The notes beneath the pieces were generated by a model. It had not been told where the DNA came from. It saw nothing but the letters and a program-made list of their open reading frames with translations, and did no database searches. A stretch of 64,000 bases of DNA from Nostoc calcicola FACHB-3891 (GTDB taxonomy: Bacteria > Cyanobacteriota > Cyanobacteriia > Cyanobacteriales > Nostocaceae). The position numbers were made by a program, and so were the translations under genes. This document shows, one piece after another, positions 51,495 to 57,678 of this stretch. The stretch covers positions 62,001-126,000 of the forward strand of contig NZ_JACJRQ010000013.1 in NCBI RefSeq assembly GCF_014697355.1. Direction: 5' to 3'. The number at the start of each line of letters is the position of its first letter. Within the stretch, counting starts at the first letter, position 1.

Positions 51495-51856
51495 TAAATG
51501 CTTTCCTCTACGTATTGCTTTTTTTTTATAACTATGAAAGAGTTTGATCGACGGCATCTTGTATTAAGTAACTGGACAAAAATATTTACAGTCATTGCGA
51601 TCGCCATGAAATGAAGCTTACTCCTTCTCTGGGGGACGCTGCGCGGAGTGTAACTTCCCTTTAGTTTGATTCGCAATAACTTTTGATGTAATTAATTCTG
51701 CCATATTATTTATTACCTTGACACAATCCACCACGAGCAAAACAAATGTGGGGACATAGCCCAGTTGGCGAAGATACTCATGAACCATAACAGTTCTTAG
51801 ATTCAGCTACGAAATAAAGACAGCAAAAAGATTCGAGAGGAGATTAAGCGCAGATT

Positions 51857-54379
51857 ATGCAAGACTTTGAACTCCCAGATTTTTACATGCCATGGCCAGC
51901 GCGCTTGAACCCTAACCTAGAGGGTGCGCGTCTACACAGCAAGGCGTGGGCATATACAGTGGGTATCCTCGGCTCGAGCGACGATGCAGTATGGGATGAG
52001 AAAACTTTTGATAAGATGGATTTCGCGGCTTTTGCTGCGGCCACTCACCCAGATGCACCTGCTCCTGAGTTGGACTTGATTACTGATTGGTATATTTGGG
52101 GATGGTTTGTAGATGACTACTTCGCTCAAGCATTTGAGGTGGGAAACGCGGATATAGGAGAGGCTAAGGCGTATCTCTCTCGACTGCTATCTTTTATGCC
52201 CAAGGATTTGAGTACACCTACGCCGGATGCTGAGAATCCAGCAGAGTATGCTTTGGCTGATTTGTGGCCTCGTACCGCGCCTACTATGTCTGAGCAGTGG
52301 CGACAGCGATTTGTAGAACACATCCAAATCATGTCTGAAGCCAGCTTGCGAGAGCTGTTTAACAAAGACAAGAACCAGGAGCGAATTCTCGATCCAATCG
52401 AGTACATTAAAGTACGCCGTATAATCAGCGGGATGATTTGGTCTGCGGATTTGGTCGAACACTCCCTAGCAGCGGAGATTCCACCAGATATCTACGACAA
52501 GCGGCCTATCCGGGTGCTAAACGACATCTTCTGTGACACCGTAGGTATACGTAACGACATTATTTCCTACCAGAAGGACATCGATGAAGGCAGGGTCAAT
52601 AACTGTGTAATGGTGGCTGAACACTTCCTAAACACCAGCATACAGGAAGCCGTCAACTTAGTCAATGACCTCGTGACCTCACGACTGTACCAGTTCGAGC
52701 ATACTATGACGATGGAACTCCAACCACTGTTGGATGAACATGGGCTAGATGGTGAGGCGCGTCAGCGAGTGTTGCTTTATGTGAAGGCACTCCGGGACTG
52801 GATGGCTGGGGATCTGGAGTGGGAAACCCGACCTGGCGGTCGATACCTACCTGCCGAATCGGAGCAAGATGAGGCACAACTTGTGACCAAGCATTTAAAT
52901 ACTGCGCTGGCACGTGTTGGACTATCCCCAACCGCGATGGGATTAAGGGTCAGAACCTATAATCACATTTCTTTCCAGACCGTGGGAGAAATTACCCTAC
53001 CAGAGTTTTATATGCCGTTTTCTACAGGGTTAAACCCTCACCTGGAGGAAGGGCGACGGAGTTCTAAGGAATGGGCTTACGAAATAGGAATGCTTGGTCT
53101 TCCTGGCATTAGTATCTGGGATGAACAGAAGTTTGATGCGATCGATGCAGCGTGGATGTGTGCGTTAATTTATCCAAATGCTCCCAAAGCTTTGTATGTG
53201 CTGACGACAAAATGCAATGTTTGGGGCTTCTATCTCGATGATTACTTTACAAAACGCTACTTAATGACCCGCGACCTAGTAGGGGGAAAAGTATTCCTGG
53301 CTCGACTGTTGGTATTGAACTCTAGCGACTGTGCCCCTCTCCTGATGCCAACTGACCCATTGGAACGTGGCTTGATCGATCTAGGGCAACGCATGGCTGC
53401 TTCTCTGTCTGCTGAAACAGCGCAGCAGATGCGCTGCATCCTAGTAGAAATATTGGAAAGTTGGGTGTGGGAACTCAACAACCAGATACAGAATCGCATC
53501 CCAGACCCAATCGATTACATAGAAACACGCATCAACACGTATGGTTGTGGTTTCATGGTGTTGTTGAACGACAACAACAAAACACCCCCTGAAGTTTATG
53601 ACACTCCAATTATGCACAGTCTATACAACACGGCTGGCGGTGTTATTGCTTTTACCAACGACATCATTTCTTATCAGAAAGAAATGGAGTACGAAGGCAT
53701 CGTCTCTAATGGCGTGCTGGTTACTCAGCATTTTCTTGACTGCGATTTAGTGCAAGCTGTTGAGATATTCAACAACCTGATCGCTGCGCGGGTGCATGAG
53801 TTTGAATACATCATCGCTACTGAGCTACCCGGACTCTGTGACGAATTCAACCTAGATACAAGCGATCGCCAGAAGCTATTCGGATATGTCGAACAACTAC
53901 AGTTCCTGATGTCTGGTCTGCTCAAATGGTACTTGGGAACCAGCTGCCATAAAGAATCGGAATTTCGACGCGATCCCAGCCCGAGAAACCTGTTCAATAT
54001 TCCCATAGCGTTAGACTCCTCAGCCCCCGCAGAAGCACAAAAACAGTTGGTTGGCATCCTCAATGGGCTAGGTACTTCGGCGGCAAAAATTTGCACTCCA
54101 TCATCTAAGACTGGTGAAGGCAGCATTCAGTCCATACCGACCGAGAAGGCTATTTTGTCAAAACAGTTGGTTGGCATCCTTAATGGGCTAGGTACTTCGG
54201 CGGCAAAAATTTGCACTCCATCATCTAAGACTGATGAAAGTAGCATTCAGTCCATACCGACCGAGAATGCTGAGTCAATTATTTCGTCAAAACAGTTCCT
54301 TGGTGGTCCGACAGGGCTGGGCACTTCGACTGCACGTATCAGCTCGTCGATCGGTGCAGAGGATCTAGGGTCAGAATAA
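51857..54379 (+). CDS. geoA: Geosmin synthase (germacradienol/geosmin synthase) with extended repetitive C-terminal tail
   Basis: 840 residues; bifunctional class I terpene cyclase, two homologous halves. The N-terminal half converts farnesyl-PP to germacradienol: DDYF at 86-89 and NDIISYQKD (Asn233, Ser237, Asp241). The C-terminal half converts germacradienol to geosmin: DDYF at 461-464 and NDIISYQKE (Asn601, Ser605, Glu609). After about 715 comes a low-complexity tail with two near-identical 40-residue repeats (729-768, 769-808) and a third partial unit (812-830), each with GLGTSxA(K/R)I. The tail makes the protein longer than the roughly 725-755 residues I expect for the family. ATG at 51857 with a GAGGAG site before it. 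Two CNB-domain genes follow on the same strand. Confidence 0.95.
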   Translation: MQDFELPDFYMPWPARLNPNLEGARLHSKAWAYTVGILGSSDDAVWDEKTFDKMDFAAFAAATHPDAPAPELDLITDWYIWGWFVDDYFAQAFEVGNADIGEAKAYLSRLLSFMPKDLSTPTPDAENPAEYALADLWPRTAPTMSEQWRQRFVEHIQIMSEASLRELFNKDKNQERILDPIEYIKVRRIISGMIWSADLVEHSLAAEIPPDIYDKRPIRVLNDIFCDTVGIRNDIISYQKDIDEGRVNNCVMVAEHFLNTSIQEAVNLVNDLVTSRLYQFEHTMTMELQPLLDEHGLDGEARQRVLLYVKALRDWMAGDLEWETRPGGRYLPAESEQDEAQLVTKHLNTALARVGLSPTAMGLRVRTYNHISFQTVGEITLPEFYMPFSTGLNPHLEEGRRSSKEWAYEIGMLGLPGISIWDEQKFDAIDAAWMCALIYPNAPKALYVLTTKCNVWGFYLDDYFTKRYLMTRDLVGGKVFLARLLVLNSSDCAPLLMPTDPLERGLIDLGQRMAASLSAETAQQMRCILVEILESWVWELNNQIQNRIPDPIDYIETRINTYGCGFMVLLNDNNKTPPEVYDTPIMHSLYNTAGGVIAFTNDIISYQKEMEYEGIVSNGVLVTQHFLDCDLVQAVEIFNNLIAARVHEFEYIIATELPGLCDEFNLDTSDRQKLFGYVEQLQFLMSGLLKWYLGTSCHKESEFRRDPSPRNLFNIPIALDSSAPAEAQKQLVGILNGLGTSAAKICTPSSKTGEGSIQSIPTEKAILSKQLVGILNGLGTSAAKICTPSSKTDESSIQSIPTENAESIISSKQFLGGPTGLGTSTARISSSIGAEDLGSE
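54041..54340. repeat. 120-bp tandem duplication inside geoA
   Basis: Units start at 54041 and 54161 (exactly 120 bp apart, only a handful of differences). A third divergent unit starts at 54290. Encodes the repeated C-terminal tail of geosmin synthase. Confidence 0.95.
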
Positions 54380-54537
54380 TTCGTAATTGATAATTCGTAA
54401 TTCGTAATTACCCCGAACCTATCTCTGGCAAGTGCTGTTGATACAGAGCAAGGAATAAATTTTGATGATATCTATCAAGAAATTGAGTTCCTCTGCTCTT
54501 TAATTACGAATTACGAATTACCAATTAGTAATTCATT
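54376..54537. repeat. TAATTCG heptamers in two inverted arms
   Basis: taattcgtaattgataattcg-type units directly after the geosmin synthase stop (54376-54412), with their complement at 54500-54537. Confidence 0.75.
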
Positions 54538-54628
54538 AGGACTTACGCAAAAACTCTCTGAAACTCTTATTTCTTTGTGTCCTTTGCGTCCTTTGCGGTT
54601 CGTTTTTTCATGATTTTGCGTAAGTCCT
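54538..54628. mobile_element. 91-bp MITE, perfect 15-bp TIR AGGACTTACGCAAAA
   Basis: AGGACTTACGCAAAA at 54538-54552 and its exact complement at 54614-54628. The core is the tgtcctttgcgtcctttgcg stretch. It separates geosmin synthase from the first CNB gene and ends 50 bp before the latter's start. Confidence 0.88.
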
Positions 54629-54678
54629 GTTCATATGAGATCGGTTTTTTTACTAACTAGAGCTTGGAGGATGAAATT

Positions 54679-56088
54679 GTGACTTATTCTAACGATCCCA
54701 ATTTGAATGTTGAAGGTCAGCAGCCACAGCAAAGTTTGAGTACAGCAGCGGCGCGTAATTTGGCGACAACAGCCAAATCTGCACCGCAGACCCAGGAAAT
54801 TACATCACGATGGTTGTTGAAGCTGTTGCCTTTTGTACAAACTAAAGGTGGCACTTTTCGAGTCAACCGTCGGTTGAGTTATACCGTAGGTGATGGGCGG
54901 GTGAGTTTCACCAATACCGGAGCAGCAGTCCAGGTAATTCCGCAAGAACTAACTGAATTGCCCTTACTGCGCGGATTTGGCGAAGTTGATGTCTTGACCG
55001 GCTTAGCAAACCAGTTTCAGCAGCAAGAATACGCCCCAGACGATGTAATTGTAGAGATTGGTCAGCCCGCCGATCGCATAATTCTAATTGCTCGTGGTAA
55101 GGTGAACAAGATTGGTCTTGGCAAGTATGGCGAGCAAATCGTCTACGATGTCCTCGCCGATGGCGACCATTTCGGCGATGAAACTGTAACCCAGTCCGAG
55201 GACACCTGGCAGTACACCCTCAAAGCAATTACCAGAACCATAGTTTTGTCGTTGCCCCAACAAGCATTTGAGAGGCTCGTCGGTCAGTCCGAGGCGCTGC
55301 GAACTCATGTCGAACAGTTCCGCACCCGCTTAAGCCAGCCACAGACTCCCGAAGGTGAAGCCGCCATTGAACTAGCAGCCAATCATCCCCAAGAAACTCC
55401 CTTGGCAGGAACCTTCGCCGATTACGAACTTGCACCCCGCGAATACGAGTTGAGCATTGCTCAAACGGTGTTACGAATCAGTACTCGCGTTGCGGATTTG
55501 TACAACGAACCGTACAACCAGACGGAAGAACAACTGCGATTAACTATCGAGTCATTACGGGAACGTCAGGAATACGAGTTACTCAACAACCGCGAATTCG
55601 GATTGCTGCACAACGCTGACTTGAAACAACGCATCTATAGCCGCACTGGCGCACCCACACCGGATGACTTGGACGAACTATTGACCACGGTATGGAAGGA
55701 GCCATCATTCTTCCTAGCTCACCCCCGCACCATTGCAGCCATAGGCCGCGAAGCCAACCGCCAAGGCGTTTATCCTCAAAGCGTAGATTTCAACGGCAAT
55801 CAAGTTACAGCTTGGCGCGGCGTACCTATCTTCCCCTCTAATAAGATTCCCATCACCAACAACCGCACCAGTTCTGTACTTTTACTCCGCACTGGTTTGG
55901 AAAAACAAGGTGTCATAGGCTTACATCAAACTGGTATCCCCGATGAGTACCAACCAAGTTTGTCTGTCCGTTTCATGGGTATCGACGAAAAGGCGATTAT
56001 TTCTTACTTAGTTACCGCCTACTACTCCGCAGCCGTTCTGATTCCTGACGCGCTCGGCATCCTTGAAGATGTGGAAATCGGGCGCTAA
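54679..56088 (+). CDS. Family 2B encapsulin-like shell protein with inserted cyclic-nucleotide-binding domain (first copy)
   Basis: 469 residues from GTG at 54679, preceded by GGAGGA at 7-nt spacing. An N-terminal arm (1-45) and a segment [35 protein letters not shown] (about 43-77) come first. A CNB domain spans about 95-205 ([19 protein letters not shown], then DGDHFGDE). The HK97-like remainder (about 235-469) includes [78 protein letters not shown] and the C-terminal [33 protein letters not shown]. Long labelled Crp-like regulators, but no helix-turn-helix is present. The phosphate-cassette Arg of true cAMP sites is absent. Confidence 0.85.
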
Positions 56089-56111
56089 ATATTCTTCAGG
56101 AGTGCTGACAA

Positions 56112-56131
56112 AGACGCGATGAATCGCGTCT
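56112..56131. repeat. Perfect palindrome between the shell genes
   Basis: AGACGCGAT/ATCGCGTCT with a 2-nt loop. A second inverted pair, aagagtgctgagtgagg (about 56136) and its complement near 56223-56240, surrounds it; the 183-bp gap holds nothing else. Confidence 0.75.
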
Positions 56132-56271
56132 GTACAAGAGTGCTGAGTGAGGAGAGATGCGATTAGCCCTTGTCTATAGAAGAGTTATTATTTCTCTCCT
56201 CTACCCCTCTGCTCCCCATCTCCCTTACTCAGCACTCTTGATGCGCTTTATTGGTAACTAGGGATGAGGTA

Positions 56272-57678
56272 ATGACGGATTTTATTGAATCGAACAGTTC
56301 AGTTGAGGGCGGACAACCTCAACTGAGTTTGAGTAAAGATGCAGCGCGCAATTTGTCCAAAACAACTAAATCTACACCCCAGACGCAGGAAATTACGCCG
56401 CGATGGTTGTTGAAGATGTTGCCGTGGGTACAAACCAAAGCTGGCACTTATCGGTTGAATCGGCGGTTGACTTATACTGTGGGCGATGGGCGGATTAGTT
56501 TCACTAATACCGGAGCTGAGGTGCAGGTAATTCCCGAAAAACTGACTGAGTTACCATTGCTGCGAGAGTTTAACGATGTTGGTGTATTGACTGCACTGGC
56601 AGGTCGATTTGTTCAGCGCGAGTTCGCACCTGGTGAGATTATAGTGCAGGCAGGTCAACTAGCTAATGAGTTTGTGGCGATCGCGCATGGCAAGGTTAAC
56701 AAGGTTGGTATTGGCAAGTATGACGAGCAGCCTTTTTTGGATGTGCTGGCTGACGGTGATTATTTTGGCGAACAGGTATTGGTGGAGCAACAAAGCAATT
56801 GGAAGTTTACAGTCACAGCTGTCACCCAATGCACGTTATTGGCGCTACCACAACAGCGATTTCGGGAACTACTCAATCAGTCCAGGGCTTTGCAGGCTCA
56901 AGTTGAGCAGTTTCGGACTCGCGCCCAACAACCACAAAATAAATACGGAGAAGCTTTAATTGCTTTATCCTGCGCTCATCCTACAGAGACGACGTTACCA
57001 ACAACATTTGTTGACTACGAACTCTCACCCCGCGAATATCAATTGAGCATTGCTCAGACTGTGTTAAGGGTGAGTACTCGCGTTGCGGATCTATACAACG
57101 AACCGTATAACCAAACAGAAGAACAACTGCGACTGACTATCGAGGCTTTGCGGGAACGTCAAGAATACGAGTTGATTAACAACCGCGAATTTGGGTTGCT
57201 GCACAATGCCGATTTCAAACAGCGCATTTATAGCCGCACCGGCCCCCCTACTCCTGATGACCTTGATGAATTGGTTACCCGTCGGCGGAAGTCGAAGTTC
57301 TTCTTGGCTCACCCCCGTACTATTGCAGCCTTCGGTCGGGAGTGCAACCGTCGGGGCATTTATCCACCAACCATTGATGTTGATGGGACTAAGATAATTA
57401 CTTGGCGCAATGTACCGATTTTTCCCTCTAACAAAATCCCAATTACTAAGAACCAGACTAGTTCTATCTTGATACTCCGCACTGGTGAAGATGACCAAGG
57501 TGTGATTGGTTTGCATCAAACTGGTATCCCTGATGAATACCAACCTGGTCTGTCTGTCCGATTCATGGGCATCAACGAAAAGGCGATCCTCTCCTACCTC
57601 GTCACTGCTTACTACTCAGTAGCTGTTCTCGTCCCCGATGCAATCGGCATTCTCGAAGATGTCGAAATCGGGCGCTGA
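56272..57678 (+). CDS. Family 2B encapsulin-like shell protein with inserted cyclic-nucleotide-binding domain (second copy)
   Basis: 468 residues from the ATG at 56272 (GAGG just upstream); an in-frame TTG seven codons earlier is not needed. Collinear with the first copy along its whole length and ends in the same ILEDVEIGR. The most different part is the CNB domain ([24 protein letters not shown]), so the two may differ in ligand or in assembly position. The phosphate-binding Arg is again missing. Adjacent paralogues suggest a mixed shell. Stop followed by an inverted repeat. Confidence 0.85.

Follow-up and report, generated by a model that had tools for sequence, protein, structure and literature searches.

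The locus at positions 51857-57678 of the 64,000-nucleotide stretch of Nostoc calcicola FACHB-3891 DNA analyzed in this work (the window; source genome 9.03 Mb in 98 contigs) encodes a terpene cyclase and two encapsulin shell proteins, and we propose that it specifies a two-type Family 2B shell with an exchanged, tag-loaded cyclase that does not make geosmin. Judged from sequence comparison, the probability of this reading as a whole is put at roughly 0.66. As the preliminary description of the locus had stated, three collinear genes lie on one strand, the plus strand (open reading frames 51857-54379, 54664-56088 and 56251-57678). The first encodes the putative cargo, an 840-residue two-domain cyclase with two PF19086 matches that resembles geosmin synthase and falls outside the canonical clade in trees; the second and third encode the shell proteins Enc1 and Enc2. 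In the proposed mechanism, Enc1 and Enc2 would co-assemble into one shell, three GLGTS motifs in the cyclase tail would load the enzyme into it, the N-terminal domain (N-domain) would ionise and cyclise farnesyl diphosphate, and the C-terminal domain (C-domain) would no longer make geosmin, the product being another sesquiterpene. The conserved gene start and the tag would serve as borders at which recombination swaps cyclase cores, while the shell and the loading address stay in place. The divergent and apparently exchanged cargo, instead of an ordinary geosmin synthase, is what is new here. Compared loci and genomes are designated by L and G numbers.

The best NCBIfam match of the cargo is the Family 2 cargo model NF041168, at 1069 bits under a cut-off of 1200. 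Matches above the cut-off (1218-1269 bits) were found in 40 of 198 genomes, a set that includes the source genome, in which no synthase above the cut-off was found. A Family 2B shell over its own cut-off is present in 48 of the 198, i.e. in 40/40 genomes with an above-cut-off synthase and in 8 of the 158 others (lists compared by eye); these eight are the source genome, G013, G026 and G118 (altered synthase loci), G153, G175, G125 (a cysteine desulfurase locus by eye) and G186 (a short shell). The window cargo is at most 51.7% identical to 39 relatives that share 71.6-99.5% with one another (median 79.9%), and it retains 239 of the 381 positions invariant in them. The 39 come from the 40 above-cut-off genomes, with G036 omitted for a stop inside its match; the altered or other loci L073-L077, L079-L082 and L112-L114 were also omitted. 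Protein searches found nothing closer than 52% over the cargo length in 386 genomes of the phylum, and no other full-length cargo match above 53% identity in 217 genomes of the family, the source genome included. The preliminary description had called the gene a geosmin synthase, a label that its score on NF041168 and its identity of at most 53% to synthases of the family do not support. The window shells are 84-93% identical to those of the nearest loci.

Two close relatives of the cargo, L130 from a metagenome-assembled genome (MAG) of Oscillatoriales (78%) and L131 from a Coleofasciculus MAG (70%), were recovered in a scan of one genome per species over 84,980 species, from which 80 of 104 loci were kept. 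The window cargo, L130 and L131 form a clade with support of 100/100 and a long stem (the larger tree has 83 rows), and the sequences thus show a clade distinct from the canonical geosmin synthases. Virus-borne relatives came to one weak locus among 38 pattern matches (36% over 73 residues), and all 46 matched plasmid records are below 60% identity, the best of 20 listed being 38.7%. For the origin of the clade, a separate paralogue of deep descent and a fast offshoot of cyanobacterial synthases were both considered, and the approximately unbiased (AU) test (p 0.143 for a single clade with the other cyanobacterial synthases) settles neither.

The changes in the cargo fall on active-site motifs, which were counted from a table of the eight commonest states of each motif. 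In the N-domain (residues 1-335; 51857-52861, plus strand), DDHFLE, present in 75 of 79 other rows, is replaced by DDYFAQ (DDYFPR in L131), and the NSE motif reads NDIISYQKD, most others being NDxFSYxRE. This motif ends in D throughout the window clade and in E in 77 of the 79 other rows (77 of the 78 with letters at this position), the remaining two being a gap and the NDIISYDID of L188. Both N-domain motifs have been named as magnesium-binding (PMC7251104). The C-domain (residues 377-708; 52985-53980, plus strand) has an altered sensor region and faster amino-acid change, and VDRYKE, present in 58 of 79 others, is absent from the window cargo, L130 and L131; the C-domain DD has become DG, with loss of the second Asp, in L130 and L131, and the C-domain NSE motif is retained. 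The RY pair binds diphosphate. The closest competing explanation is that a two-component Family 2B shell holds an ordinary geosmin synthase, which has drifted in sequence and still carries out both steps to geosmin. Such a synthase would share the two-domain layout, the best-matching NCBIfam model and the C-domain DD and NSE found here, and the explanation agrees with an AU test that does not reject a clade with other cyanobacterial synthases. We regard it as unlikely, because the NF041168 score lies under the cut-off, both N-domain metal motifs and VDRYKE are changed, and the change is mosaic, not gradual. Loss of geosmin synthesis is likely. The earlier suggestion that the compartment keeps geosmin or its precursor germacradienol inside is doubtful for this locus, since the cargo appears to be a divergent, exchanged cyclase.

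The two domains are under different constraint. Between the window cargo and L130, the ratio of nonsynonymous to synonymous substitution rates (dN/dS) is 0.113 for the N-domain (95% interval 0.073-0.164) and 0.316 for the C-domain (0.229-0.439), with the C-domain higher in 1000 of 1000 resamplings; over the clade the ranges are 0.11-0.13 and 0.29-0.40, and in six canonical pairs 0.043-0.094 and 0.068-0.197. The N-domain is thus kept, whereas constraint on the C-domain appears looser than in canonical synthases, though still present. Characterized enzymes form germacradienol in the N-domain and convert it to geosmin in the C-domain (PMC7192455, PMC8949605). Together, the N-domain constraint and the relaxed C-domain lead us to predict a functional cyclase whose expected product is a sesquiterpene other than geosmin. 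Alternatively, the gene may be decaying, with an inactive cyclase and shells that are empty or hold other content. Loss of C-domain motifs across the clade, the C-domain dN/dS of 0.29-0.40 and the broken synthases of relatives (truncated in G013, split in G026) fit such decay, which is nevertheless improbable given an open frame of 840 residues, the strong N-domain constraint and the intact tag repeats.

Cargo exchange between loci is well supported by pairwise comparison of 63 two-shell loci (1953 pairs), in which the window locus, L076 and L209 were set aside after the values had been seen. Near-identical shells (Enc1 at least 88%, Enc2 at least 84%) were found in 151 of the 1953 pairs. In the 137 of these that involve none of the three loci, the cargos share 83.2% identity or more, with a median of 92.8%. 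In the eight near-identical-shell pairs with the window locus the value is only 46.8-51.1%, in the four with L076 38.3-39.5%, and in the two with L209 76.0 and 77.3%. L209 (Amazonocrinis) and L160 combine a cargo of the second cyanobacterial clade, which is taken to be the published Cyano II group, with shells of the other group. The L130 genome, when probed as a whole, yielded two shells on another contig that share 94.5-97% identity with shells from the canonical loci L149 and L153. In the window-L130 comparison, synonymous divergence (dS) of the cargo is 0.62 and that of the two shells 1.28 and 1.62; L130 and L149, by contrast, have shell dS values of 0.09 and 0.20 and a cargo dS of 2.2. 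These opposite contrasts indicate that a cargo type moved between shell lineages after their split.

Mosaic structure within the cargo gene marks where such exchange may have taken place. Upstream of the gene, at 51700-51856, the window has an identity of 71-83% with four Nostoc/Komarekiella canonical loci and of 49-65% with L130; over 51857-51976 the two identities are about equal, and over 51977-52156 they are 52-60% to the canonical loci versus 86-90% to L130, which remains nearer up to 54304. The shift from Nostoc canonical loci to L130 places a putative 5' recombination border within codons 1-40 (51857-51976, plus strand). The L130 match ends at 54305 (82% before, 54% after), and the segment 54305-54379 (plus strand), which contains the last tag motif, is nearer to canonical gene ends and probably represents the resident 3' end. 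Of 25 gene ends compared with its first part, 54305-54374, that of L138 matches best, with 57 of 70 bases identical; only 17 bases of L130 aligned. The 3' end was judged by this gene-end comparison, as MAFFT had set the canonical tags opposite an earlier repeat, leaving no aligned bases at 54305-54379. In L130 the resident-like part is the gene start, roughly its first 131 bases.

L076 (G118:C93:18000-30000) has a comparable structure. Its cargo of ~595 residues begins with the first ~107 geosmin-synthase codons, continues with one GC-rich cyclase domain and ends in a tail bearing three GLGTS motifs, and its shells are 98%/92% identical to those of canonical locus L149. Against L149 it is 94.5% identical upstream and over about the first 320 gene bases; about 1.4 kb is then unmatched, and identity resumes at 91.6% from about the last 69 gene bases through Enc1. 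The unmatched part has a GC content of 63-69%, flanked by DNA of 33-52%, and its best NCBIfam match, below the cut-off, is isoafricanol synthase. The gene start is resident-like in all three cases (the window, L076 and L130), and in two of them the last tag as well. Taken together, the mosaic gene of the window and the GC-rich core between retained ends in L076 suggest that loci exchange cargo and keep shell and tag. Divergence in place by fast evolution, with no exchange between lineages, is compatible with the unchanged gene order and with the AU result for the deep position of the clade. It predicts equal cargo and shell dS and no borders. This prediction fails here, as the window-L130 cargo dS is less than half of the shell dS, identity shifts within codons 1-40 and at 54305, and the L076 insert is foreign in GC content; this alternative has little probability. 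With somewhat less confidence than the reading of the window itself, we propose that terpene-cyclase encapsulin loci are cargo-exchange sites, where new cores, even foreign GC-rich ones, gain the resident shell at once, and that the window cargo may represent a third class of two-domain cyclase encapsulated in cyanobacteria, in addition to the two published groups of cyanobacterial geosmin synthases, with an unknown sesquiterpene as product.

Enc1 (54664-56088, plus strand, motif TVWK) and Enc2 (56251-57678, plus strand, motif RRRK) are, on profile and chain alignments, near certain to be Family 2B encapsulin shell proteins, as the preliminary description had recognized. They are paralogs sharing 70% identity and score 745 and 760 bits on the encap_f2b model NF041163 (curated cut-off 400), which excludes a chance match. 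The longest starts give 474 and 475 residues; the earlier figure of about 469 residues for both stands only with the alternative in-frame starts (GTG at 54679 and ATG at 56272, giving about 469 and 468 residues). Each protein has PF19307 and one cyclic nucleotide-binding (CNB) domain, PF00027, which precedes the main shell segment (PF00027 at 121-208 and 123-210; PF19307 from 222/223). No helix-turn-helix family was detected in either protein in the Pfam search (E up to 0.001), in agreement with what had first been noted, and Enc1 and Enc2 account for all PF19307 matches in the source genome. The solved Family 2B chains 9bhu, 9bix and 9bje align with both proteins over near full length, 9bje scoring best with Enc1, and 9bhu followed by 9bix with Enc2. 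The older annotation, which reads both CNB proteins as Crp/Fnr regulators acting on the cyclase gene, was rejected as very unlikely, although each has one CNB domain and the Crp/Fnr label persists on two of three solved Family 2B sequences, because a helix-turn-helix is missing and HK97-fold shells are matched near full length.

Two-component shells that co-assemble have been demonstrated in Streptomyces lydicus, whose shell proteins differ diagnostically in TVWK (Enc1) and RRRK (Enc2); the same report, citing previous studies, states that Family 2B shells do not bind cyclic nucleotides through their CNB-like domain (PMC12407261). The chain 9bje holds the Sl-Enc1 motifs and 9bix the Sl-Enc2 motifs as quoted there, and the two chains were assigned to Sl-Enc1 and Sl-Enc2 in this work by the motifs they contain. 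The window translations have TVWK in the first shell protein and RRRK in the second. At the second diagnostic motif, compared by eye, the Enc1 segment aligns with AVDFHGHSLP of 9bje, and the Enc2 segment differs from GAELHGTDVR. Of the 63 two-shell loci, that of the window among them, 62 have the order V-type then R-type, L187 being the exception; of five loci with a single shell in the compared DNA, four are R-type and one, where the contig ends, V-type. By homology, co-assembly of Enc1 and Enc2 into one shell is likely.

The cargo tail (54040-54379, plus strand) carries three GLGTS tag motifs, at residues 737, 777 and 820, two of them inside a 120-bp tandem repeat (1.9 copies, 54040-54271, 95% matches). 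The motif scan, which covered positions 300-460 and >660 (L076 as a whole), found no match to a GPTGLGTSAAR-type motif between the domains of the window cargo. L130 also has three C-terminal GLGTS motifs, and L131 retains the inter-domain motif with no C-terminal match. At least one match is present in 75 of 83 cargo rows. Nine motif-bearing synthases (L154, L185, L186, L188, L192, L193, L197, L198 and L200) lack a shell in the compared flanks, which extend up to 7 kb on either side, and all nine genomes contain Family 2B shells elsewhere; when the probed genomes of L177 and L209 are added, a Family 2B shell over the cut-off is found in 11 of 11, and in none of 14 control genomes. Loading of the cyclase by its tail tags is likely by homology.

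Several observations weigh against the proposal of an exchanged, tag-loaded, non-geosmin cyclase. The AU test (p 0.143) does not reject a single clade with other cyanobacterial synthases, and the C-domain of the window cargo retains DD and NSE. C-domain dN/dS is well under 1 in the window clade and exceeds the N-domain value in canonical pairs too (1000 of 1000 resamplings for L143-L132, with a C-domain value of 0.197, and between 352 and 968 of 1000 for the other five pairs); the C-domain may therefore be active. Eight of the 83 rows (L162, L177-L181, L183 and L189), all with adjoining shells, have no motif match, which argues against a strict need for the tag unless tags have drifted beyond the pattern, and no Family 2B shell above the cut-off was found in the L131 MAG, for which completeness is not given.

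The remaining observations concern related loci and the DNA around the genes. Geosmin synthases of L177-L181 and L183 (Myxococcaceae, mostly Corallococcus) lie beside two shells and show no GLGTS match, the tag being lost or drifted. In L073 (G026) the synthase is split in two frames, and in L074 (G013) it is truncated at 267 residues, with one shell found. In L077 and L112 (G153, G175), two Family 2B shells flank a methyltransferase-like gene and a 394-residue cyclase with N-terminal FGPTGLGTSAAR; by eye this is a 2-methylisoborneol cluster, and both genomes also hold a short shell of about 318 residues. Upstream of the L130 cargo (L130:1-1696) a serine recombinase and TnpB-like pair is seen by eye, and behind the L131 cargo (L131:3940-4812) an IscB-like frame. 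Short A/T-rich repeats of period 7/14 and, by eye, an inverted repeat lie at 54376-54409 and about 54535-54635 of the window, in the 284-bp gap between the cargo and Enc1 genes.

Loci in which the enzyme has changed while shell and tag are kept offer direct tests of shell role and loading; what the genes have retained indicates the loading address, and whether a shell is product-specific could be learned from shells that are up to 98% alike yet accompany different cyclases. A geoA-like gene next to two cnb genes does not necessarily imply geosmin, and taste-and-odour monitoring of water by polymerase chain reaction could conceivably be affected.

The main idea of the preliminary description is not new, since PMC7251104, PMC8346489 and PMC12407261 already describe such loci and shells. 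PMC7251104 reports cyanobacterial clusters in which two cnb genes (products of 471 and 469 residues) lie downstream of geoA, together with the synthase groups Cyano I and Cyano II. PMC8346489 counts 904 Family 2B operons that include terpene cyclases, of which 64 are cyanobacterial, describes geosmin-synthase-like cyclases, and regards GPTGLGTSAAR, present both in the inter-domain region and C-terminally, as a possible targeting signal; PMC8049743 places Family 2b shells next to terpenoid genes. Among the matches listed in a literature search of titles and abstract starts (few subscription papers), neither cargo exchange nor the window cargo clade was found as a subject. The window locus shares gene order, two CNB shells, a two-domain cyclase and GLGTS with the published operons (PMC8346489, PMC7251104). 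It differs from them in a cargo outside the canonical clade with changed metal and sensor motifs, in a mosaic gene, and in a tripled tail tag with no inter-domain match. The S. lydicus two-component encapsulin (PMC12407261) has the same TVWK/RRRK pair and near full-length alignment with the window shells, but it is of the xylulose-kinase type, comes from an actinomycete and was studied without cargo; mixed shells were shown there.

Among solved cyclases, the N-domain of germacradienol/geosmin synthase (5dw7, 5dz2; the matched chains are N-domain only) belongs to the sequence family of the cargo N-domain (295 bits to 5dw7), from which the window cargo differs in its altered DDHFLE and NSE and its longer tag tail. 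The Streptomyces paralogs L188 (Streptomyces sp. NRRL WC-3742) and L224 (G657), two-domain cyclases that carry GLGTA/GLGTS motifs, share with the window cargo the N-domain signature DDYFPQ, RRSVGGILWSA and NDIISYxID. In the Streptomyces genus of L188, 2 of 70 genomes (G520 and G657) have a protein with this signature and 54% N-domain identity to the window cargo. N- and C-domain trees differ, a hint that the two domains have different histories. The window clade joins L188/L224 in the N-domain tree, which is no evidence of a clade by itself because the tree is unrooted and only three groups meet there; the shared motifs give a hint of such a link. L188 also has 54% N-domain identity to the window cargo but only 36% in the C-domain, and the L188 and L224 genomes differ from that of the window in each holding a second, canonical-looking two-domain synthase.

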